DNA of 64,000 nt from Gloeocapsa sp. PCC 7428 (GTDB lineage: Bacteria > Cyanobacteriota > Cyanobacteriia > Cyanobacteriales > Chroococcidiopsidaceae). Below, piece by piece: positions 6,918-48,769 of this stretch; position 1 is the first letter of the stretch, and the number at the start of each line of letters is the position of its first letter. The DNA lies in the NCBI RefSeq assembly GCF_000317555.1, contig NC_019745.1, forward strand, positions 5,088,001 to 5,152,000, given 5' to 3'. A program made the translations under genes and the position numbers. The notes beneath the pieces were generated by a model that worked only from the letters and a program-made list of their open reading frames with translations, did not search any database and was not told the DNA's origin.

Positions 6918-7147
6918 GGAAGCTCTTTTTGTAGCCACTTTATAGTCCTATATGACTTACGCAATCTGAGCGTTTTAATTAGAACCAAGAATTGGGGGGC
7001 TTCCCCCCAATCCCCCCATCGGGGGACGCCAGTCGCTACAACGGGGGGAACCCCCGCAACGCGCTGGCTCACGGTTGCGTCCCCCAAACCCCCTCCAAAA
7101 AAGCGGCTACTCACAAAACAGCGATTGTTCAGGGTAGCTGTTGCCTA

Positions 7148-34787: not shown

Positions 34788-36302
34788 CTAATTTGCAATC
34801 GCTTGAAATGCACTCCAGCTATTCAAAATTAAGTACGCAAAAATTGCGCCACCAATCCCACCAATGAAAAAGCCGGTTGTAAACTGACTCCACTCATCGA
34901 CATTCTGCAAAGCCTCTGGCACGTTGGGAACTGTTGCAGCAAACGCTGGTCGGGGTAAAGTTTCTAGGCGTTTTTCTAGTTTGGTAGTACCATAGATTGA
35001 GAAACCGATGGTCAGCAGGAGAATCAAACCACCAGCTGCGAGTAAACCAACTAAAGCACCAATGTTCGCATCGCGTAATGTCCCAATAGAACCTAATACA
35101 GCAAAAGGTCCCACTAGCCAATAACCGTGTGCCATACCAATTTCTAATCCCCGCGCTAAAGGATTAATTCCTGGACGGTAAATTGGTAGGTATTTGAGAA
35201 AATTCAACGTCACATCTTGGGAATTGATCGCATTGTTCGCAGCTGCCATTTGCAGATTAACTTGCGGTGGCTGAACCATGTCACCTTTTTTGAAATCAAA
35301 TCCAGCCGCAGTTGCGCGCGCGCGTAAAGCGTGCCAAATATGACCGATGAGGAAAATCAAAGCGAGGACAACATGGAATGTCACCAGCCAACCACGCACA
35401 GAAACTAACCCAGGCGCAGATTCTAGAGTGCGTACCGGACCATAAAATACTTCGGGGTAAGCGGTGTTATTGACCCACGCGAAGTACGCAGCAAAGAAGC
35501 CCATGTAGGCAACGGCGCCAATGCTATACGAAAGATAAGCTTCGCCTGAGTAAATTAAAATGCGTCGCGCCCAAGCAAAAGGTTGCGTCAAGATGTGGAA
35601 GATTCCACCGCCAATCAACATCAAGCCAACCCAGATGTGACCGCCGACAACATCTTCTAAGTTATCAACCGCAGCCATTCCTTCTGAACCCCAAGCTCCG
35701 AATAGATAGCCGAAAATGCGGATAGGATTGAGTGTAGGATGACTGATAACGCGCACATCACCACCACCCGCTGCCCAAGGGTCGAATAATCCACCCCAAA
35801 ACATCGCTTTGGCAACAAGTAGCAACGCGCCTAAACCTAAAAGTACGAGGTGAATGCCTAAAATAGACGTGATTTTATCTTTATCTTTCCAGTCATAACC
35901 GAAGAACCCAGCTAGGGTAGGGTTGTCTTCTAAAACTTCGGGACCTAATAAAGCGTGATAAAGTCCTCCGGCTGCCAGAATGACTGACGGTATCAAATGC
36001 AAGACAGCAACAACAAAGTAAGGATAGGTGCTAATCACTTGTCCGCCAGCCCCAACACCAAAGCCCAGCGTTGCTAAATGCGGTAGTAAAATTAACCCTT
36101 GTTCGTACATCGGTTGATCGGGATGAAAGCGTGACAACTCGAAGAGTGTCATTCCTCCAGCCCATAGCAAAATCAACCCTGAATGCGCAACGTGCGCGCC
36201 CAACAATTTACCCGATAAGTTTGTTAAGCGAAAATTACCAGCCCACCAACCTACGTCAGGAATTTGGTTTTTGTAAGGGCTATCTGAGATCACTGCGGTC
36301 AT
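34788..36302 (-). CDS. CP43-like chlorophyll protein fused to a PsaL-like domain
   Basis: 504 residues. Residues 1-345 are an IsiA/Pcb six-helix antenna: [58 protein letters not shown] and [11 protein letters not shown], with many chlorophyll-binding histidines. Residues about 370-504 match PsaL, the trimerising subunit of photosystem [39 protein letters not shown] and a final hydrophobic helix. Such isiA-psaL fusions are known in a subset of cyanobacteria; the PsaL part may let the antenna dock in a photosystem I position. AAGGAG precedes the ATG at good spacing. It lies 81 bp after isiA. A TTGACA-like box (reverse strand, 36337-36342) could give a secondary promoter. Confidence 0.92.
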
Positions 36303-36383: not shown

Positions 36384-37442
36384 TTAACTTGGTTGCGGAA
36401 TCACTGCATCTTCACTGATGCGACCTTTACGAAAATCTAAACCACGCGATCGCAAAGCGTGCCAGATATGTCCTTGCAGAAAGAAAAACGCTAACCAAAA
36501 ATGAGCATTCGCTAGCCAAGTCCGCGAGGTGACTAAATCAGGATCGGGCGATGAAAAGTAAGGCACAATATTCTGCCGTACCACCAGCGCAGGACCGTAA
36601 AACACTTCAGGATAAACGGTGGTATTGACGGAGACGAACAGCGTTGCAACGAATCCCATCAACGCCAAAGCGCCCAAGCTGTAGGAAAGATAAGCTTCTC
36701 CCGACCAAACAAAGAACGGATATGTCCAGCGAAAAGGCTTGGTTAGGATGTGAAATATTCCACCAAAAATTAACATTCCACCAACCCAGATATGACCGCC
36801 GACAACATCTTCTAGGTTGTCAACGCCAGCAATCCAGAACCTACCAATCGCACCGAAGAGATAGCCATAAATCACTGTCGGATCGAGCGTTGGATTTGTA
36901 ATGACTCTGACATCTTCGACATTCGGGTCGTACAAACCACCAAAGTACATTGCCTTCGCGACTAAAAGAAAAGCACCCACGCCGAGTAAAACGAGGTGAA
37001 TGCCCAAAATCGTCGTCATTTTGTTGGTATCTGCCCAGTCGTAGCCAAAAAACGAAAATCTTCCTTCTAACCTTTCTGGACCGCGTAGCGAATGAAAGAT
37101 ACCGCCAAAACCAAGAAACGCGGACGAAATGAGGTGAATGACACCGATCGCAAAGTACGGCTGCGTATCTACTACAGTACCGTTGGCACCAACTCCCCAA
37201 CCTTGGGCGGCTAGATGCGGTAGTAGAATTAATCCTTGCTCGTACATCGGTTTTGCAGGATTAAGATGACCCAGTTCAAATAAAGTCATAGCGCCTGCCC
37301 ACAGCACAATCAAGCCAGAATGAGCGACATGAGCGCCGAGTAATTTACCCGATAAATTCGTGAGGCGTGCATTACCTGCCCACCAGGGAGACTCTGCGAG
37401 ATCTTGCTCCACTGAAAGTGGACTCTTAGCGACAGTTGTCAC
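36384..37442 (-). CDS. isiA: Iron-stress chlorophyll-binding protein IsiA (CP43')
   Basis: 352 residues. Six transmembrane helices and the CP43 hallmark sequences: [60 protein letters not shown] and [13 protein letters not shown]. It lacks the large lumenal loop of PsbC, as expected for IsiA. It binds chlorophyll a, forms rings around photosystem I and quenches excess energy under iron limitation or high light. First gene of a leftward operon: isiA, isiA-psaL, isiB, hydrolase. A Fur-box-like site and -10-like box lie upstream. The start ATG fits the family N-terminus, with AGGAGGTAAGAG just before it. Confidence 0.95.
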
Positions 37443-39110: not shown

Positions 39111-40196
39111 CTAGCTATGACTGTGATGAGCGCGAATATAACGCAACGTAACAATAGCTAGTGTAACGAGCGTAATGGGAATAATAAAGGCTTGGAACAC
39201 CAAACTAAATATCGGCAAACTGTCGTGTTGCGTCGAATACAAAATTAAGTATGCTGTATAAGCAACGTAGTAAGCGAGAAAGAGAATTCCTTCCCAACGG
39301 GAAATCACGTTATCCGTAAAGAAAATTGGCAAACAGGCGATCGCGGTTGCAATCATGACGGGAATATCGAACCGTAGCGCCGCAGCCGAAACAGCAACAC
39401 CATCAGGCGAGAAAATACTCGCTAGCCCCAAAACTGCGAGAAGATTAAAAATATTACTGCCGACAACATTTCCTACCGCAATGTCGCGTTCGCCACGTAT
39501 ACTCGCAACAACTGAAGTAGCAACTTCGGGTAAAGATGTTCCGGCGGCGACAATTGTTAATCCGATGATTAGCTGGCTAACGCCAATTGCTTGTGCGATC
39601 GCGATCGCCCCACTCACTAACCAGCGGGAACCGATGACAAGTAATACTAAACCACCAAGGATAAAGCCTAAATTGACTAACCAAGCTGTTCTGCCATAGT
39701 TGCCGTATTCTCTAGCGTATTCTTCTTGAACCGCAGTATCTTTTTCTTGGCGGCTTTGGTAAATCAAGAAAAGAGTGTAAGCAACGCCACCAATAAATAG
39801 TAAAATGCCATCAATTCTTCCGATTCTCCCATCATAACCAAGCAAATGAGTTAAAAACGATACACCGATCATGATCGGGACATCAAACTTGACTAACTGC
39901 TGAGAGACAATCAGAGGAGCGACTAACGAAGAAACGCCCAAGATAAACAGAACGTTAAAAATATTACTGCCAACAACATTACCCAATGCAATATCAGCTT
40001 GTCCGGCAAAAGCAGATTGCACGCTAACTGCAAGTTCAGGTGAACTGGTGCCATAAGCAACTATCGTTAAACCGATGATTAGGGGTGAGACTCCAGCACT
40101 AGCTGCGAGGCGCGATGCTCCACGCACCAATATTTCTGCGCCGACAACGAGCAATACTAAGCCGATAATTAATAAAACAATTGTTGTAATATCCAT
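39111..40196 (-). CDS. Calcium/sodium:cation antiporter, CaCA family (YrbG-like)
   Basis: About 361 residues from the ATG at 40196 (AAGG a few bases upstream; the frame itself opens at 40256). It has ten to eleven membrane helices. Two inverted alpha-repeats carry the ion site: GTSSPELAVSV with GNVVGSNIFNVLFILG in the first half, and GTSLPEVATSV with GNVVGSNIFNLLAVLG in the second. These GTS-PE and GSN-FN motifs bind Ca2+/Na+ in NCX-like exchangers. It probably exports Ca2+ or Na+ across the plasma membrane. Monocistronic, separated by 150 bp from the cpc operon end. Confidence 0.9.
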   Translation of the reverse strand: MDITTIVLLIIGLVLLVVGAEILVRGASRLAASAGVSPLIIGLTIVAYGTSSPELAVSVQSAFAGQADIALGNVVGSNIFNVLFILGVSSLVAPLIVSQQLVKFDVPIMIGVSFLTHLLGYDGRIGRIDGILLFIGGVAYTLFLIYQSRQEKDTAVQEEYAREYGNYGRTAWLVNLGFILGGLVLLVIGSRWLVSGAIAIAQAIGVSQLIIGLTIVAAGTSLPEVATSVVASIRGERDIAVGNVVGSNIFNLLAVLGLASIFSPDGVAVSAAALRFDIPVMIATAIACLPIFFTDNVISRWEGILFLAYYVAYTAYLILYSTQHDSLPIFSLVFQAFIIPITLVTLAIVTLRYIRAHHSHS

Positions 40197-40345
40197 AAAC
40201 CTTATAACATCACTGGGTCTAGTTACCACTTGCCTTGACGGATAGCTAACAATCAATGTTATGCGATCGCCACGAACAGTGCGGAAACCAGACCCAGTTG
40301 ATTAGATGACAAAATTAAGAAATCAAACCCCAGTTCACAGCTAGC

Positions 40346-41119
40346 TTAGCGCTTACTACCCGAAGCGTTACGCACCGGAACCATTTTCATGTAGTCGATG
40401 TTGTAGGCAGAAACACCTTGAGCGTAGTTTTGCTTGGGTGCGATCGCGGCTGCCATATCGCGATACTTGCGGGGATCGCCTTCGCGTAGCTGTCGCTGTT
40501 CGTACTTGCGGCTGTAGAATTGCTCCAGCGCAAAACGCCAATCGGTGGTAACAGTGCCAGCTGTTTCGCGGAAGTCTTCACCATAGCGGGGAGTCACTAA
40601 GTTGAAGGGGCGACCTTCCATCCGCTTGCGCTGATAAGGTACGGTGTAGTCACCAAAATTATCGGTGTATTCTTCGCTATCAAGCAAGGCATCAACAAAA
40701 CCATGAAAGCCTAGCGTGCCAATTTTGATTGACCAAGCGATTTGCTCATCTTTGTTGTAAGATGACCGACCAAGAAAGCGCTTCAAGCAGATATCAACAA
40801 GGCGGTAGTTGTTATTCACCGCAACCACCATTTGGTAAAATCGCTCCGACTTGGCAAGTCCGCGAATAAAATCGCGTACCGAAATCGCGCGATTCTTAAG
40901 TTGAGACTCTAGCTGTACTTGACGGTTGGCTTTGAGAATTTCATGCTCGCTGAAAACCTGGCGATAAGCTGCCCAAATCAATTCTTGAATCTCTGCGGGC
41001 GAGTTCGCGTCTTCTACACGGTAGATGTATGGAGTTTCATCGTCGAGGTCAGCAACACCAAAGCTGCGGACGCGGTGATTTTGTGTTGTAGGTTTATACT
41101 GAAGCAACGGCAATGCCAT
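40346..41119 (-). CDS. cpcG: Phycobilisome rod-core linker CpcG (third copy)
   Basis: 257 residues. It starts [20 protein letters not shown], the CpcG N-terminal signature, with a PBS linker domain (about 35-180) including [35 protein letters not shown] and [17 protein letters not shown]. The C-terminal tail (180-257) has the variable region that docks to the allophycocyanin core. It attaches phycocyanin rods to the core. Last gene of the cpc operon; 68 bp after the second cpcG. There is no obvious chlorophyll-antenna-type C-terminal membrane helix, so it looks like a normal CpcG1 type, not CpcL. Confidence 0.93.
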
Positions 41120-41187
41120 GCTGCTATCTCCGTTTCAAACAATAAGTTTAGTCGTCAAATTAAGGGGAAATTCAATTTATCCAGCTG

Positions 41188-41931
41188 TTACAACCGAACA
41201 GGGAAGCTAGCTGAAGGATTGACTGAAACTGGTACCCCTTGTTTATTATCCCGTGTCATGTCCGGAATTTGGATGTTGGCAGTACTGACAGACGTAAATT
41301 GTACTTGTCGAGTATTAATTGAACTTGCCATTTCCATGAAGTTATTAATATCGCCCCACTTGTAGCGCTCTTTTTCTTCCTTGTCGCGCCAGTAATCAGC
41401 GTAACGCGGTGTAACCAAATTAAACGGACGATCCTTAAAACGACGTCGCTGATACGGTACTGTTGTATCGCCAAAATTGGTTTGGTATTCTTCGCTATCG
41501 AGCAAAGCATCTACAAAACCGTTCCAGCCGAGGCTAGCTATTTTAATCGACCAAGCAATTTCTTCGTCTCGATTGTACGGGGCGCGACCTAGAAGTCGTT
41601 TCAAACCAACTTCCACCAATCGGTAGTTAGAATTTGTTTCTACAACCAAGCGACGAAAGCTTTCTGATTTCGCTAACCCGCGAATGAAATCGCGAACAGT
41701 AATTGCACGATTTTTCAGTTGCGATTCTAGCTGCGCTTGGCGGTAAAACTTCAGTGTTTCATGTTCGCTGAAGACTTGGCGATACGCTGCCCAAATCAAT
41801 TCTTGGATTTCGCCATCAGAAGCACAATCTTCTAAACGATAAATCCAAGGAGTATCCTCGTTTGGTACTTCATAACCCGATACCCGCTGATTTTGGGAAC
41901 TCGGTTGATATTCAAGTAAAGGAATTGGCAT
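41188..41931 (-). CDS. cpcG: Phycobilisome rod-core linker CpcG (second copy)
   Basis: 247 residues: [20 protein letters not shown], then a linker domain with [35 protein letters not shown] and [17 protein letters not shown]. The C-terminal tail [19 protein letters not shown] differs from the other two copies, as expected if each sets a different rod attachment. No hydrophobic C-terminal helix. 124 bp separate it from the first cpcG; that gap holds a GGTAATTG/CAATTACC palindrome. Confidence 0.93.
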
Positions 41932-41983
41932 AGATTTAACTGGGTTTTTAGGGTCACATTTTACGTACTAGGTTTAGGTAACA

Positions 41984-42021
41984 GGTAATTGTATAAGTTT
42001 TTTTTTCTCTAACCAATTACC
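41984..42021. repeat. Palindrome between cpcG copies
   Basis: GGTAATTG (41984-41991) pairs with CAATTACC (42014-42021). The loop holds a run of T on the plus strand, so on the cpc coding strand it has a run of A. This looks like a short dispersed repeat (similar words near 37990) more than a terminator. Confidence 0.35.
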
Positions 42022-42055
42022 AAGTTTCGCTTATACCTAGTTACTGAGTTACGCA

Positions 42056-42904
42056 TCAATCTACTTTGGGATTAGCCGAGGGAATATAGCGATAAGGCAA
42101 AGCAACTTCGGTGGGTTTAACGGCACGCTGTAAGGAATTTTCCCCGCGAGTCATATCAGGAATTTCCAGATTTTTGACTTGTGAGGTGACGCTAGCAACG
42201 GTTCGCTGATAGTTACGCTCGTTTGGTAATAGGCTTCCTGCCATTGCAAAAAAGGTGTCGGGAATTGCTTGACGTGCAGCTTCTTGTTTGGGCATATTTT
42301 GTGTCCGTCGTACCTGATAATAAGAACGTCCTGATATGGATTGTAATGTCTGGCGATCGCGCCAGTACGCTCCATAACGCGGATTGACTAAATTAAATGG
42401 ACGTTCGTTGAAGCGACGCCGCTGATATGGCACCACATCATCGCCAAAATTCTGCCGATACTCTTCACCATCTACGATCGCGTCGATAAACCCGTTCAAG
42501 CCTCGTGTTGCAATCACGATTGACCAAGAAATCTGTTCGTCTTTCCCGTAAGTCGCGCGTCCTAAGAATCGCTTGAAGGTGATATCTACTAAACGATAGT
42601 TAGAATTTGTTTCGCCTACCAATTCGCGGTAAACATCCGATTTCCCTAACCCGCGCACAAAATCGCGGACGGTAATAGCTCGATTGCGCAGTTGTGATTC
42701 TAGAAATGGTTGACGATACGTTTCTAAAATCAAGTGTTCGCTAAAAATTTGTCGATACGCTGCCCAGATAAGTTCGTTAACGTCTGTATCTGATGTCACA
42801 TCGGTCATGCGATACATTCTTGGGTCGTCTTCGTCTGGAACTTCGTAGCCAGCAACGCGTTGATTTTGGGTAGTCGGGGTGATTTCAAGTAGAGGTATTG
42901 ACAT
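42056..42904 (-). CDS. cpcG: Phycobilisome rod-core linker CpcG (first copy)
   Basis: 282 residues, the longest copy. MSIPLLEITPTTQNQRVAGY is followed by the linker domain with [35 protein letters not shown] and FLGRATYGKDEQISWSI. A long C-terminal tail includes SYYQVRRTQNMPKQEAARQA and LEIPDMTRGENSLQRAVKPT. Same role as its neighbours, linking rods to the core. It follows cpcF by 44 bp. The three copies share the linker core but diverge in the tails, indicating old tandem duplication rather than recent copies. Confidence 0.93.
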   Translation of the reverse strand: MSIPLLEITPTTQNQRVAGYEVPDEDDPRMYRMTDVTSDTDVNELIWAAYRQIFSEHLILETYRQPFLESQLRNRAITVRDFVRGLGKSDVYRELVGETNSNYRLVDITFKRFLGRATYGKDEQISWSIVIATRGLNGFIDAIVDGEEYRQNFGDDVVPYQRRRFNERPFNLVNPRYGAYWRDRQTLQSISGRSYYQVRRTQNMPKQEAARQAIPDTFFAMAGSLLPNERNYQRTVASVTSQVKNLEIPDMTRGENSLQRAVKPTEVALPYRYIPSANPKVD

Positions 42905-42948
42905 TTTGACAGCCTTATAGTAGTGAATAAAAACAGTAAAAATTTGTT

Positions 42949-43575
42949 TTAAAAAGTTGTACTGAATAATTGCGATTGAGCCAATTGCACGCGCGATCGC
43001 ACTGCCGCATCTTTTTCGGTTTCTAAAATTTGCGCAAACTTATCCTGAATTTGCGGTGTCAGTTCGGACGTTGTTGCTAGCCCTTGTAAGCCAACAACCG
43101 CAGCGTAGCGAATCGACCAGTCTGCATCTTGGGCAATGAACGCTAAAGTCTCTAACGCTTTTGCTTGGGCAGCAGTTTGCTGTTGTGTAGATAATTCACT
43201 CCAGCGTAAATTCCCAAGCCCTTTAGCAGCCGCACGCCGGACACTTGGAGCAAAATCGGTCGCTGCCGAAGCGAGTAGAATATCCAAAGCACGCGGGTCA
43301 GCGATCGCTGCTAAGGCTCGAATTGCATACGCTCTTGCGCCGTAGTTGTAATCGTCAAGTTGTTCAATTAACGGTTGTACCGCTGGACTACCGATTTGAA
43401 TTAATCCCTGTACTGCTGCGACAGCGGCGGTAGGATTGTTATAACCCAAGACGGCAATCAGCGTCGATATCCCTGCTGCGACTTCAGCGGCTGCCAAATC
43501 CCTGACTGCTGCGACTAAGCGCGGGGCAGAGTCGGCTTGTTCGACGGCGCGAATGAGGGCTTGTGCTTCGGTCAT
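42949..43575 (-). CDS. cpcF: Phycocyanobilin lyase subunit CpcF
   Basis: 208 residues of HEAT-like/E-Z-type alpha-helical repeats (AVAAVQGLIQIGSPAVQPLI, YAIRALAAIADPRALDILLA, SVRRAAAKGLGNLRWS). Partner of CpcE in the heterodimeric lyase that attaches phycocyanobilin to Cys84 of CpcA. It lies 22 bp after cpcE, and the small gap contains a GGTCGGAGGTCAGG repeat. The ATG and N-terminus MTEAQALIRAVEQADSAPRL match the family. Confidence 0.92.
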   Translation of the reverse strand: MTEAQALIRAVEQADSAPRLVAAVRDLAAAEVAAGISTLIAVLGYNNPTAAVAAVQGLIQIGSPAVQPLIEQLDDYNYGARAYAIRALAAIADPRALDILLASAATDFAPSVRRAAAKGLGNLRWSELSTQQQTAAQAKALETLAFIAQDADWSIRYAAVVGLQGLATTSELTPQIQDKFAQILETEKDAAVRSRVQLAQSQLFSTTF

Positions 43576-43597
43576 TATAGGGGTCGGAGGTCAGGGT

Positions 43598-44419
43598 TTA
43601 TAAGAGGGAGTCCATGAGGTTCATGACTTGGATCGCGTCTTGAGTTGGTGTTTCGTGCTGTTTGGCTTGATGTTCTAGCAGTCCTTTCAGCGCTAGCAGT
43701 TTGAAGCTGTTTTCGGCGGCACAACGAGCGATCGCTTCGCGTGCTGGGAAATAACCAATTGCACCTAAATCGCTCAGTGCTGTGCGGCGCAGTTGTAGAT
43801 CGTCACCTTCTAAAGCTTGCATCAAGCGTTGACCGTAGCGATCTTCCTGCGTCAACTGATACATAGCTCGCGTTGCCGCATATTGAACTTTAGCTTGAGG
43901 ATGTTCTAAAAATGGTTGAATGAGCGATACTGCTTGCTTTGCTTGTAACGCACCCAAAGCTTCAATTACCGAGTCATAAGGTTGAGTCAAGTGCGGACGC
44001 CCTGGAACTGGTACAGCGACCTCTACACCACCTGTTAATAATTCCATTAATGTGGGAATTGCGCTTGGTGCGTCTAACATTCCTAGTGATTGTGCCGCTG
44101 CTTCGCGGACGTAATAATCTTCACACGCTAGACAGCGAATCAATCCAGGTACGGCTTGCGTGTCACCAAGTTTTCCTAAGGCTCTAGCCGCGTTGCGCCG
44201 CAGCGGGTATCCTCCTAATTCTGTGCGATCGTCTTCGTCTTCTAATGCTGCGATTAAAGCTTCTACTGCTCTTGGTGCGTTGACGCGAAATTTACCCAAC
44301 CACCAAGCTGCATAGTAGCGCAAGCTCAAATCAGGCGATCGAAGGTTGGCGATCGCCTGTTCTACAGTAAGTCCTTGTGTTTCTGCTACGGAATCTTCTG
44401 ACCGATTAGAATCCTGCAT
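43598..44419 (-). CDS. cpcE: Phycocyanobilin lyase subunit CpcE
   Basis: 273 residues of HEAT/E-Z repeats (TVEQAIANLRSPDLSLRYYA, RNAARALGKLGDTQAVPGLI, YVREAAAQSLGMLDAPSAIP, LRRTALSDLGAIGYFPAREA). With CpcF it ligates phycocyanobilin to the alpha-phycocyanin cysteine and can also exchange chromophores. 6 bp after the second cpcD, so tightly coupled. Full length for the family; no disruptions seen. Confidence 0.93.
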   Translation of the reverse strand: MQDSNRSEDSVAETQGLTVEQAIANLRSPDLSLRYYAAWWLGKFRVNAPRAVEALIAALEDEDDRTELGGYPLRRNAARALGKLGDTQAVPGLIRCLACEDYYVREAAAQSLGMLDAPSAIPTLMELLTGGVEVAVPVPGRPHLTQPYDSVIEALGALQAKQAVSLIQPFLEHPQAKVQYAATRAMYQLTQEDRYGQRLMQALEGDDLQLRRTALSDLGAIGYFPAREAIARCAAENSFKLLALKGLLEHQAKQHETPTQDAIQVMNLMDSLL

Positions 44420-44425
44420 TAGCTC

Positions 44426-44674
44426 TTAAGAATCATTAGCATCAACGCTTAACGGTTGAATACTGACAATCTTGCCACCTAAACGGGTAATCCGCTGCAT
44501 TTCCTCGTTCATGCGGTTGTAGGGAACTGTAACAAATACACTACCACTACGGCGGATATCGTAATTATTTTTGTCAGTTTCTTGGTTCTGACGCAAACCA
44601 ACAACTTCATAACGAAATACGCGACTGGCGTTAGAGGATACGCCTCCGTTTCCAACGGTTGTTTGACCAAACAT
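44426..44674 (-). CDS. cpcD: Rod-capping linker CpcD (second copy)
   Basis: 82 residues: MFGQTTVGNGGVSSNASRVF, YEVVGLRQNQETDKN, then VTVPYNRMNEEMQRITRLGG and KIVSIQPL, the complete CpcD domain. It caps the distal end of phycocyanin rods and limits rod length. 28 bp after the first cpcD; the two share the domain but differ in the C-terminus. Confidence 0.92.
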   Translation of the reverse strand: MFGQTTVGNGGVSSNASRVFRYEVVGLRQNQETDKNNYDIRRSGSVFVTVPYNRMNEEMQRITRLGGKIVSIQPLSVDANDS

Positions 44675-44702
44675 GACTGCTTTGTCTCTCCTGTAGTAAG
44701 GT

Positions 44703-45029
44703 CTAATCCTTATCTGCGCCTGCCGCTTTGTTCTTACCTTCAGCTTCTAGGTTTTGCGTCACTGCGGTTGCTTCGCTTTTAGCTTGGCTATTACCATCAA
44801 TCGTCAGCGGTTCAATACTCACAATGGTGCCACCCATGCGGTGAATGCGCTGCATTTCTTCATTCATCCGATTGTAGGGGACGCTAATGAAGAAACTGCC
44901 GCTACTGCGAATCGGATAACTGAGTTGATCGTTTTCGTATGTCTGACGCATTCCTCTGACTTCGTAGCGAAACATCCGATTTTCGGCGTTGCTGAGTCTG
45001 CCACTGCCAAGTCCAGTTTGACCAAACAT
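44703..45029 (-). CDS. cpcD: Rod-capping linker CpcD with extended tail (first copy)
   Basis: 108 residues. The CpcD domain (1-80: MFGQTGLGSGRLSNAENRMF, VPYNRMNEEMQRIHRMGG, IVSIEPLTIDG) is followed by an extra charged Ala/Glu/Lys tail (about 82-108) absent from its neighbour. Same capping role; the tail may alter rod termination or stability. It is separated from cpcC by 98 bp that hold a strong palindrome. Confidence 0.9.
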   Translation of the reverse strand: MFGQTGLGSGRLSNAENRMFRYEVRGMRQTYENDQLSYPIRSSGSFFISVPYNRMNEEMQRIHRMGGTIVSIEPLTIDGNSQAKSEATAVTQNLEAEGKNKAAGADKD

Positions 45030-45088
45030 TTTTATTTGTCTTTCCCTGTAGTATTTAGACTTTAAATTGGAGGTACTCAGTTTGAGAT

Positions 45089-45121
45089 AGGCAATGCCTT
45101 AGTGCGGGCAAGGCATTGCCT
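45089..45121. repeat. Twelve-base perfect palindrome between cpcC and cpcD (type E)
   Basis: AGGCAATGCCTT (45089-45100) pairs with AAGGCATTGCCT (45110-45121) around a 9-base loop. The arms are themselves near-palindromic. It lies just past the cpcC stop, so it could attenuate transcription or protect the 3' end of the upstream message. The related hairpin is at 16321-16345. Confidence 0.6.
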
Positions 45122-45127
45122 TGTCCC

Positions 45128-46006
45128 TCATGCTGGGGTGACGCTGACGATCCTGCCACCTTTTTTGGTGATTTCTTGGTACTTCTGCGACAGCCGTTCG
45201 TAAGGCACTAAAAATGCAGTACTACTCCGGCGGACTTTGGGATATCCAGGTTGCAGAATTCCCGTCACTTCAATGCGGTACATCCGTCCGCTTTCTTCAG
45301 GAGTGCCACCCAGGGCTTTTCGGGGTGCAGCATCCGCAGGAATTGCCGCGTGTTTCCAGGTGGAACCACTACCAGCAGGTTGCACAATGTTGGAAGCTTG
45401 GTTGCGTCCGAGTTCGCGCATTAACCGAGGCGATTTGCCGCCTACAGTGCCGCGATCGCTTGTCGCATATCCGCGATACAGCCGGAACATCCGTGTAAAA
45501 CCAGTGGTTTGCACGCCTGGCTCGACCATAAAGCCGCGATAATACGGAACAACGTTATTACCAAAGCTGTTTTCGTATTCAATGCTATCGATATGCGAAT
45601 CAATCTCAGCATCGTAACCTTGCTCCTCACACAGTTGCGTATGATAAGCTAGTTCTTCTTCGCTATATGGTGCGCGACCTAAAAGATGCTTGAAATTGAG
45701 TTCAACAAAGCGTTGATTTGAATTTGGATAGAAAAACTTGTTTTTGTATAAATCTGATTTAGCGACGGCGCGAACAAAATCGCGAACTGTGATATTTCCT
45801 TGCCGTAGAAGCGATTCCGCAGATGTTAGACGTTCTGCTTGCATCACATAGTCGTTGCCTAATACCTGACGATAAACAGCACGAATAACGGTCTGAATGT
45901 CATCTTCTGTCCAATCGGGTCGCAACTCAACTCTTGATGAAGCATCAAACGCCGAAAGCCCTAAACGCCCTGCGGCTGCTAAATTGTTTACCATTAAAGC
46001 GCTCAT
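45128..46006 (-). CDS. cpcC: Phycocyanin rod linker CpcC
   Basis: About 292 residues from the ATG at 46006 (GGGAGA upstream; the frame itself reaches 46078). The N-terminus is [20 protein letters not shown]. The PBS linker domain has [40 protein letters not shown] and [17 protein letters not shown]-terminal CpcD-like domain (about 235-290) has [20 protein letters not shown] and [18 protein letters not shown]. It joins phycocyanin hexamers within the rod. Only one cpcC is present, so rods may contain few extra discs. Confidence 0.93.
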
Positions 46007-46058
46007 CAACGGTTCTCCCAACGCAATAAATTTTTGATTCTGCAAAATTGGAAAAACA

Positions 46059-46121
46059 ATGCCCGGAAAAATTAGCAACTGCTAGCTTTTTGCGCCAACA
46101 CTCGCTTACTCTTCCGGGCAT
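46059..46121 (-). terminator. Intercistronic terminator/attenuator after cpcBA
   Basis: On the coding strand ATGCCCGGAA pairs with TTCCGGGCAT (10 perfect base pairs, 43-base loop), followed by TGTTTTT. It starts 12 bases past the cpcA stop and precedes cpcC. A leaky terminator or 3' stabiliser here would explain the large excess of subunits over linkers known for cpc operons. Confidence 0.65.
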
Positions 46122-46133
46122 CGCACCTGAATA

Positions 46134-46622
46134 CTAGCTCAGGGCGTTGATAGCGTAGTCAATGTATGTGTTGGCTTCGTTAGCTGCTTGACCTTGCAAG
46201 CCATGGTTGGACTTGATGTGCTTCAATGCTTCGACGTACCAGCTAGGAGATAGGTCGAAAGAGCGGTTGATTTCATCCAAACCAGCAATTAAGTACTCGT
46301 CCATTGGACCTGTACCACCAGCAACTAGGCAGTAAGTTACCATGCGTAGGTAGTGACCAATGTCACGCGCACACTTGGATTTACCGCGCGAATCAGCAGC
46401 ATACTGAGGTCCTTGCATTTGGGTGGTGTAAGGAAACTTCTGATAAACTGCTTGTGCGGCTCCGTCAATGAGTTGCTGTGACTTTTGAGTCAATGCTCTT
46501 GCAGCTTCCATGCTGGCTGCTGCACGGTCAAAGCGACCATTAATAGCTTGTAATTCGGTGTTGCTTAAAAAACGACCTTGGGTATCCGCAGCGCCGATTG
46601 CTTCTGTAATTGGGGTTTTCAT
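46134..46622 (-). CDS. cpcA: C-phycocyanin alpha subunit CpcA
   Basis: 162 residues, standard length. [20 protein letters not shown] opens it; the bilin site is [20 protein letters not shown] (Cys84), followed by [20 protein letters not shown]. The globin-like fold pairs with CpcB to form (alpha-beta)6 discs that absorb orange light near 620 nm. CpcE/CpcF from the same operon attach its chromophore. 62 bp after cpcB with a strong GGAGATATT ribosome site. Confidence 0.97.
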
Positions 46623-46684
46623 TGTTGCAATATCTCCTTTTTGTTTTCTCGAAGTTTAATTCAGCTATATAAGCTTTGAAAATA

Positions 46685-47203
46685 TTAGGCAACAGCAGAA
46701 GCAGCGCGGTCAAAGTAGCTAGCTACTTCAGACATTAATTGGCTGCAATCACCTTGGGTAATACCGTTGGGGTCGTTAGCAATCTTGATAGCAGCATCTT
46801 TCATTTTTTGCACGCCAGCTGCAACTGAACCACCAGGTACGCCCAAAGCTTGGTACGTTTCGCGCAGACCATTCAAGCAGCGATCGTCAAGTACGCTAGC
46901 ATCACCAGCCATTACAGCATATGTTACATAGCGCAAGATGATTTCCATGTCGCGTAAGCAAGCAGCCATACGACGGTTGGTGTAAGCATTTCCGCCTGGT
47001 TGGATCAACTGAGGCTGCTCTTCAAACAACGCACGGGCTGCATCGGTAACAATGCTCGAAGCGTTGCTGGTGATGCGGTTCACTGTATCCAAGCGCTTGT
47101 TGCCGTCTTTTACCATGTTGGTGAGTGCGTCTAATTGCTCGCTGCTTAAGAACTCACCTCTTGAGTCAGCTTGGGATACTACTTTGGCGAATGCATCTAA
47201 CAT
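46685..47203 (-). CDS. cpcB: C-phycocyanin beta subunit CpcB
   Basis: 172 residues. [20 protein letters not shown]; the methylated Asn72 region is [18 protein letters not shown], with bilin Cys82 in [17 protein letters not shown]. Cys153 lies in [20 protein letters not shown]. It carries two phycocyanobilins and forms the disc with CpcA. First gene of the operon; ATG preceded by AGGAGAATAAAG. Its alpha-type colour variants (phycoerythrocyanin pec genes) are not in the window. Confidence 0.97.
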
Positions 47204-47839
47204 CGACTTTATTCTCCTAAATGAGCGAAAAGTAGAGTGCTGTTTTTAAAATCAGGAATGTTGTTGTATGCGGTTGGAATTGACCGCAACAGACTTTACT
47301 CAAAACACTTTTTCAAGCTATTCTCAGTTGCTCTTGGTCGTTAGTTGGGGATCAAACGGTACAAGAGAGAAATCTGAGAAGGTGTGTGACTTTTATGAGA
47401 AAGTCGTTTACTTGATGGATAAGTGTTTTTGTTGCTTTTGCCTGTTACTTAACCCCTCCAGGTAATCTTTATACAATGCCCTCGTGTCATTGTTTTTTAC
47501 AAGTTGTTAAGTTTTTCCCGTACTTGCTAAATAAAAGCTCAAACCCTTTCTACACATTGATTGCACTTTATAAAAAGCATTTTTAGCTGTAACAAAACTT
47601 CACGTAATTATACTTATTTAAGCTCGACATTTTTTCTTTATTTTTTCTTTACCTTTTCTCTATATCCTGTAGAGCAAGGCTTCTAACCTATTCATGGTCA
47701 TTGCATCTAAATACAAAATATTAAGAAATACAAACGAGTTGTATCTAAATATTTCTATTAGTTGTTGCAATTCTTTAGCTAATCAGTCGGTGAAGTTTAG
47801 CTGCGATCGCAACTCGTTAACACAAAACCAGCACCCCAA
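47204..47839 (-). promoter_or_regulatory. Upstream region of the cpc operon
   Basis: A 630-bp AT-rich gap between cpcB and the RluA gene. It must contain the cpc promoter and leader. A TATAAA (reverse strand, near 47470) preceded at a long distance by TTGTAA is a weak candidate; I could not fix the start site. The short ORF-like stretches here (47268-47465 and 47694-47999) lack ribosome sites or protein character. Confidence 0.4.
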
Positions 47840-48769
47840 TCAAGCGATCGCCATCCGACGACGCAAAACTTGCAAAAGCGTAGTGAAACTAGCAGGCAAA
47901 GGCGCGATCGCTTCAATAAATTCACCACTCATAGGATGCTGTAACTTAAGTTTCCAGGCGTGTAGTGCTTGTCCTGGAAGATTCACCCCAACCGAATGAC
48001 CCGAACTGTAAACAGGATCGCCCACAATCGGATGACCCAGCGCAGCACTATGAACGCGAATTTGATGCGTACGTCCTGTTTCTAGCTGAAAGTGCATCAA
48101 CGTATAATTACCTAATCGCTCCAAAGTCTGCCAGTGCGTAACCGCAGAACGTCCCCCTTTCTCCACAGAGACAACCGCCATTTTCTTGCGATCTACCGGA
48201 TGACGACCGATGGGAAAGTCAACTGTACCACTCTCTGATTTCGGAACACCATAGACAACACCGAGATATTCTCTACGCGCAGTTTTTGCTTTGAGTTGTG
48301 CTTGCAGATGTTGTTGCGCAAAGTCGGTTTTGGCAATCGCGATCGCCCCTGTCGTATCTTTATCTAAACGATGCACAATTCCAGGGCGCTGTACGCCGCC
48401 AATTCCAGGTAAATTAGGACAGTGCGCGAGTAAGGCATTGACGAGGGTACCACCAGCATGACCAGGTGCAGGATGAACAACTAGCCCTGCTGGTTTATTA
48501 ATAATTAACAGCGAGTCATCTTCATAAAGAATATCTAAGGGAATATCTTCCGGTTGCAAATCGAGTGGTTGTGCATCGGGAATTTCAACTGTAATGCGAT
48601 CGCCTGGTTTTATCGTGATTTTTTTGGAGGTACAAACTCGATCGTTAAGTTGTACTTGTCCTTGTTCGATCAGGTGTTGAATGCGCGATCGCGACAAATC
48701 AGATAATTCTTGTGCCAAATAACGGTCAAGGCGATCGCTTTGTGCTTGTACTTGAATGGCGATTATCAA
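47840..48769 (-). CDS. RluA-family ribosomal large subunit pseudouridine synthase
   Basis: 309 residues. An N-terminal S4 RNA-binding domain (about 10-65, SRSRIQHLIEQGQVQLNDRV) is followed by the RluA catalytic domain: LLIINKPAGLVVHPAPGHAG, GIVHRLDKDTTGAIAIAK with the catalytic Asp in RLDKDT, and QLETGRTHQIRVHSAALGHP. It isomerises uridine to pseudouridine in rRNA (RluD-like order of domains). The start appears to be a TTG; no better in-frame ATG is near. Monocistronic. Confidence 0.92.
   Translation of the reverse strand: MIIAIQVQAQSDRLDRYLAQELSDLSRSRIQHLIEQGQVQLNDRVCTSKKITIKPGDRITVEIPDAQPLDLQPEDIPLDILYEDDSLLIINKPAGLVVHPAPGHAGGTLVNALLAHCPNLPGIGGVQRPGIVHRLDKDTTGAIAIAKTDFAQQHLQAQLKAKTARREYLGVVYGVPKSESGTVDFPIGRHPVDRKKMAVVSVEKGGRSAVTHWQTLERLGNYTLMHFQLETGRTHQIRVHSAALGHPIVGDPVYSSGHSVGVNLPGQALHAWKLKLQHPMSGEFIEAIAPLPASFTTLLQVLRRRMAIA

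Follow-up and report, generated by a model that had tools for sequence, protein, structure and literature searches.

How does a cyanobacterium keep its phycocyanin subunits and linkers in proportion? These proteins are among the most abundant in cyanobacteria, and the rods need a fixed ratio of them from one operon. In Gloeocapsa sp. PCC 7428 a hairpin follows cpcA in that operon, and our preferred reading, to which we give a probability of about 0.62, is that it is a conserved cis-acting RNA attenuator which, by partial termination after cpcA, sets the ratio of subunit to linker mRNA. Positions below are those of the window, that is the whole stretch of 64,000 nucleotides that was analysed.

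46685-47203, minus strand: cpcB (TIGR01339)
46134-46622, minus strand: cpcA including the stop codon, which is 46136-46134 (TIGR01338)
46059-46121, minus strand: whole hairpin, 63 nt and 26 bp, in the MFE and centroid structure
46121-46108/46072-46059, minus strand: outer helix of 14 bp, followed by mismatch A46107.A46073
46106-46102/46078-46074, minus strand: middle helix of 5 bp, followed by mismatch G46101.G46079
46100-46094/46086-46080, minus strand: inner helix of 7 bp, closed by a 7-nt loop at 46093-46087
46112-46121, minus strand: 5' arm ATGCCCGGAA, its GCCCGG core almost invariant in relatives
46059-46068, minus strand: 3' arm TTCCGGGCAT
46052-46058, minus strand: U-rich tail U-G-UUUUU, interrupted by one G
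45128-46006, minus strand: cpcC-type rod linker, ATG at 46006 (PF00427 and PF01383)
44703-45029, minus strand: cpcD copy 1 (NF058509)
44426-44674, minus strand: cpcD copy 2 (NF058509)
43598-44419, minus strand: cpcE (NF058502)
42949-43575, minus strand: cpcF (NF058515)
40346-42904, minus strand: three cpcG genes, 42056-42904, 41188-41931 and 40346-41119 (nearest models CpcG1, CpcG2 and CpcG4)

Matches to family models uphold the gene names given in the preliminary description (cpcBA, C, D, D, E, F, G, G, G), and the order on the minus strand is cpcB, cpcA, hairpin, cpcC, cpcD, cpcD, cpcE, cpcF and three cpcG genes. The hairpin starts 12 nt past the cpcA stop codon and ends 52 nt before the ATG of cpcC, and this place between cpcA and the rod-linker gene matches that of the partial terminator of the S. 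elongatus-type phycocyanin operon. A TTG start for cpcC at 46078, as in the list of open reading frames, falls within the hairpin and is not credible. A promoter of its own for cpcC was also rejected, as a consensus scan, which is a weak test, found no sigma-70-like site on the minus strand between hairpin and cpcC. A second palindrome, GGCAATGCCT ... AGGCATTGCC with a loop of 11 nt, is present in the cpcC-cpcD gap at 45090-45120 of the window in single copy in the genome, and may be a second attenuation point of the operon.

As first described, the minus, or coding, strand carries the arms ATGCCCGGAA (46121-46112) and TTCCGGGCAT (46068-46059), with TGTTTTT after them (46058-46052). The perfect 10-bp stem reported with them does exist, but it is merely the base of a stem of 26 bp, the 43-nt "loop" being itself paired. 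Stems of 10 bp are common in themselves: if gaps of up to about 60 nt are allowed, the window holds about 16 distinct inverted repeats that pair perfectly over 10 bp. The complete 26-bp element far exceeds chance: the mRNA strand has an MFE of -40.7 kcal/mol, against -17.5 +/- 2.8 for shuffles (z -8.29, none of 200 equally low). Among 14,210 segments of 63 nt, taken from both strands of the window at a step of 9, folds below -30 occur at just two places, the cpcA hairpin and about 6968-7085. At the latter, 6985-7085 holds the lowest-energy folds of the window, in a segment rich in runs of C and G that is stable on both strands. The opposite (plus) strand of the cpcA hairpin folds weakly, at -21.9 kcal/mol, and since part of the difference is due to G-U pairs that only the mRNA strand can form, we take the hairpin to be an RNA element rather than a DNA palindrome. 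It lies on the transcribed strand with a GC-rich base, as does the hairpin of an intrinsic terminator. A generic terminator scan of the window gave 16 sites against 15.1 expected, and missed the cpcA hairpin because of its loop limit of 8.

Across much of the phylum the element forms an RNA family that covaries, is single-copy and goes with cpcA. A scan for relatives of CpcA kept 80 loci, and equivalent arms lie 3' of cpcA in 79 of them, the exception (L080) having a different hairpin. A MAFFT alignment of 61 rows (A1) was made from the window and 60 of the 75 distinct loci, with near-duplicates, loci with long inserts and the different hairpin of L080 left out (L012, L027, L028, L033, L039, L043, L050, L057, L059, L060, L067, L069, L076, L079 and L080); L022 sits one column off in it. 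The 26-pair structure has standard pairs in 88.9% of cells, against 79.5% in shuffles, with none of 500 shuffles as high, and pairing falls to 33.9-45.0% if the structure is slid by 1 to 3 columns. Changes on both sides are seen in 19 of the 26 pairs and 151 cells, where shuffles give 11.2 pairs and 55.5 cells. As the arm pattern set the boundaries, the outer six pairs were in part selected by it, and as the outer GCCCGG pairs are nearly constant the covariation comes mostly from the inner part. Other families have the base of the stem itself swapped pairwise, with GGTCTGG/CCAGACC, GACCTGG/CCAGGTC or GCCCAGAA/TTCTGGGC as examples. Some Nostocales-like loci (L043, L057, L067, L079 and in part L114-L131) have large inserts in the apical loop, with outer stem and tail retained. 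Some Nostocales loci hinted at a further conserved hairpin that would take in the U-tract; this was tried and rejected, with a median z of -0.3 and 6 of 105 below -2, some of the 105 anchors coming from a loose pattern and falling in coding sequence.

In the Gloeocapsa genome the covariance model finds a single place, matched on both strands, and two extra matches at E near 1. In a phylum sample of 292 genomes it matches the element (E <= 0.01) in 67, while the search for cpcA gave 147 cpcA-like matches in 117 genomes. The link to cpcA is exclusive: the element lies on the same strand 9-108 nt 3' of 64 of the 147 cpcA-like matches (63 genomes), at 22 nt or less in 58 of the 64, and the remaining 30 of the 94 covariance-model matches comprise 25 antisense twins and 5 weak ones with E from 2e-4 to 0.009. 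A search of the loci only (E <= 0.01), for which E-values are rough given the small search spaces, found the element in 27 of 80 further cpcA-like loci, among the 83 unmatched genome-wide, and added 21 genomes to give 84 of the 117. Eight more genomes (L114, L115, L122-L125, L128 and L131) have the exact outer stem ATGCCCGGAG/CTCCGGGCAT with a loop of about 150 nt. The other 25 of the 117 comprise 17 of family f25, which we read as compact genomes of the picocyanobacterial type, and G103, G080, G085, G241, G177, G193, G215 and G282. The G103 locus opens with the same arm as the element, and G080, G085 and G241 have other long hairpins. Two loci (L138 and L139) have cpcC 24-40 nt 3' of cpcA with no hairpin in between, which counts against a universal need for it; their genomes (G119 and G109) also have another cpcA (L157 and L159) that is followed by the element. 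Three cpcA-like loci of 62-64% identity (L187, L189 and L190), probably pecA, have another hairpin with TGGGTCTTTGG-type arms 9-11 nt past the stop codon and before a linker gene; it is of like design and other sequence.

The form of the hairpin differs with what follows cpcA. For 145 of the 147 cpcA-like loci we looked for linker and lyase genes within 700 nt and for the best stem within a span of 100 nt, loci with longer loops being handled separately. With such a gene (n=114) the best stem has a median of 26 bp, and 96 loci have 18 bp or more; without one (n=31) the median is 12 bp, and 12 loci have 18 bp or more. The picocyanobacterial cpcA loci, most with no linker or lyase gene after them, have the long hairpin replaced by short terminators, mostly perfect GC stems of 7-12 bp with T-runs. 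A short perfect GC stem with a T-run is the textbook terminator. The site thus seems to be one of termination when nothing follows, with a longer and less perfect design otherwise, but the contrast largely tracks one clade (f25) and is not independent evidence.

The preliminary description had proposed that the hairpin makes a short abundant cpcBA message and a rarer long one, and so sets the ratio of subunit to linker. Position, strand, gene order and the U-rich tail favour this leaky terminator, as do the single-copy link to cpcA and the data for S. elongatus as given in the accessible text of that study (PMC3219970), but the idea is not new. On this reading a polymerase that has passed cpcA would form a very stable long hairpin and then an imperfect U-tract. 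A large share of polymerases would halt there to give the abundant cpcBA message, while the remainder would go on to transcribe the linker, lyase and rod-core linker genes, and the long stem would also give the cpcBA message a stable 3' end. For Gloeocapsa sp. PCC 7428 itself we infer partial termination, the fraction terminated and the 3'-end protection by the same hairpin.

Two features count against the terminator reading. One is stem length: at 24-27 bp, with conserved mismatches, the stems exceed what a terminator needs. The other is a U-tract with frequent interruptions: in 41 of the 58 loci measured (of 64; the arm pattern missed 6, and 4 of the 58, with spans below 40 nt, were probably mis-anchored) no T-run within 12 nt is longer than 4. 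The median hybrid stability of -3.3 for 105 family tails, against -1.0 for 13 short terminators, computed with approximate nearest-neighbour values, is a hint only, as mis-anchored tails are included. Both features favour the main rival, under which transcription always yields the full-length RNA, RNase E cleaves it in the AU-rich segment 3' of the hairpin, the hairpin guards the cpcBA portion against 3'-exonucleases and decay sets the ratio, as in the Rhodobacter puf operon. The stem is far longer than in typical terminators, the tail is AU-rich, and in the accessible text on R. capsulatus segmental stability of puf mRNA contributes to the stoichiometry of LHI and reaction centre (PMC6238624). 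Protection would not need the T-rich stretch, which is retained across families at a constant spacing from the stem. Moreover, picocyanobacteria without a linker or lyase gene after cpcA have an ordinary terminator at this place, and the S. elongatus study, in its accessible text, calls its site a partial terminator (PMC3219970). We take processing and protection to be a less likely alternative to the attenuator. A steady-state mRNA ratio alone cannot separate termination from differential decay, and the two may act together.

The arms raise a further possibility. GCCCGG is present in 54 of the 58 measured loci and the G.G mismatch in 41 of the 61 rows of A1, while the motif is scarce elsewhere. 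In the window CCCGG and CCGGG each occur once, both in the hairpin arms (46062 and 46114), with about 9 and 10 expected; in the whole genome (G000) there are 35 GCCCGG against 955 of the equally composed CGCCGG, an avoidance of about 27-fold, and in the relative G005 22 against 512. This purging is perhaps linked to restriction. GGCC is also strongly avoided in the window (5 against about 95 expected), as is CCSGG, which we regard as signs of past or present restriction. Both arms are retained though the family purges the motif and a single-step G-U escape occurs (GTCCGG in L056, L066 and L077), which suggests that the arm sequence itself is under constraint, with shared ancestry and slow change a possible cause of the retention. 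If the arms were also read by a protein or sRNA, read-through or 3'-end stability would not be fixed but under regulation, with light or nutrients as conceivable signals. We consider this distinctly unlikely, as GGTCTGG, GACCTGG or GCCCAGAA occupy the same place in other families and shared ancestry accounts for some of the invariance. To our knowledge the arm sequence has no binding partner. It is doubtful, too, that the element goes beyond a leaky terminator and is a dedicated phylum-wide RNA in which a cyanobacterial factor, or the ribosome that terminates 10-20 nt upstream, recognises the stem GCCCGGA and the conserved G.G mismatch to tune read-through; if true, the stoichiometry of the light-harvesting rods would be under active control. 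A dispersed palindromic repeat or a functionless chance hairpin, which the other perfect 10-bp repeats of the window might suggest, is hardly credible, being ruled out by the single copy in the genome, the conserved position and the covariation.

With regard to earlier work, the partial-termination mechanism which we prefer is not new, having been published for S. elongatus and suggested for Synechocystis. One locus in our sample, L184, is presumably of S. elongatus type, since its two cpcA copies lie 3.3 kb from each other, the arrangement that we take that species to have; the covariance model scores it at 26.3 bits (E 5e-5, locus-only search), and its tail is an uninterrupted T7, in contrast to the U-G-UUUUU of the Gloeocapsa window. 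According to the accessible text for S. elongatus PCC 7942, termination in the phycocyanin operon is incomplete, and RNA-seq and tiling data show a drop across the partial terminator to a cpcBA to rod-linker mRNA ratio of about 6:1, which is the rod stoichiometry (PMC3219970). The site is alike in operon and in position after cpcA and before the rod linkers, but there the drop in mRNA was measured, whereas the Gloeocapsa element is known from its sequence. In the cpcBAC2C1D operon of Synechocystis PCC 6803 cpcBA mRNA exceeds cpcC2C1D mRNA and imperfect termination 3' to cpcA was suggested, the accessible text giving no structure (PMC3925133), and the cpcA 3' end is not mentioned in the accessible parts of two Synechocystis Term-seq papers (PMC8651088, PMC8155712). 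The intercistronic hairpin of Rhodobacter puf likewise sets the ratio of antenna to other subunits within one photosynthesis operon, but acts through RNA stability and RNase E on other genes in another phylum; the text available cites a study of its deletion by title (PMC6238624). ApcZ, as far as the accessible text goes, is also a structured RNA at the 3' end of a phycobilisome (apc) operon, a 3'-end-derived sRNA, but has an internal promoter, a 7-bp terminator and acts in trans on ocp (PMC8136909).

The Rfam 15 covariance models gave no match at E <= 1 in 40000-48500 of the window and none at the hairpin at gathering scores, and no match at E <= 0.5 in 7 relatives. Two Rfam matches to IsrR, the antisense RNA to isiA, are on the plus strand at 35705-35891 and 36860-37037 of the window, and suggest two isiA-like genes on the opposite strand. 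In the literature searched, which excluded most subscription papers, we met with no account of a conserved RNA family downstream of cpcA, and a deeply conserved and partly sequence-constrained RNA element at this place seems to be unreported. The cpcA hairpin would deserve an RNA-family entry, and would be usable for setting expression ratios in engineered cyanobacteria. A conserved and portable RNA that fixes the ratio would explain how this ratio is kept up in very different species.
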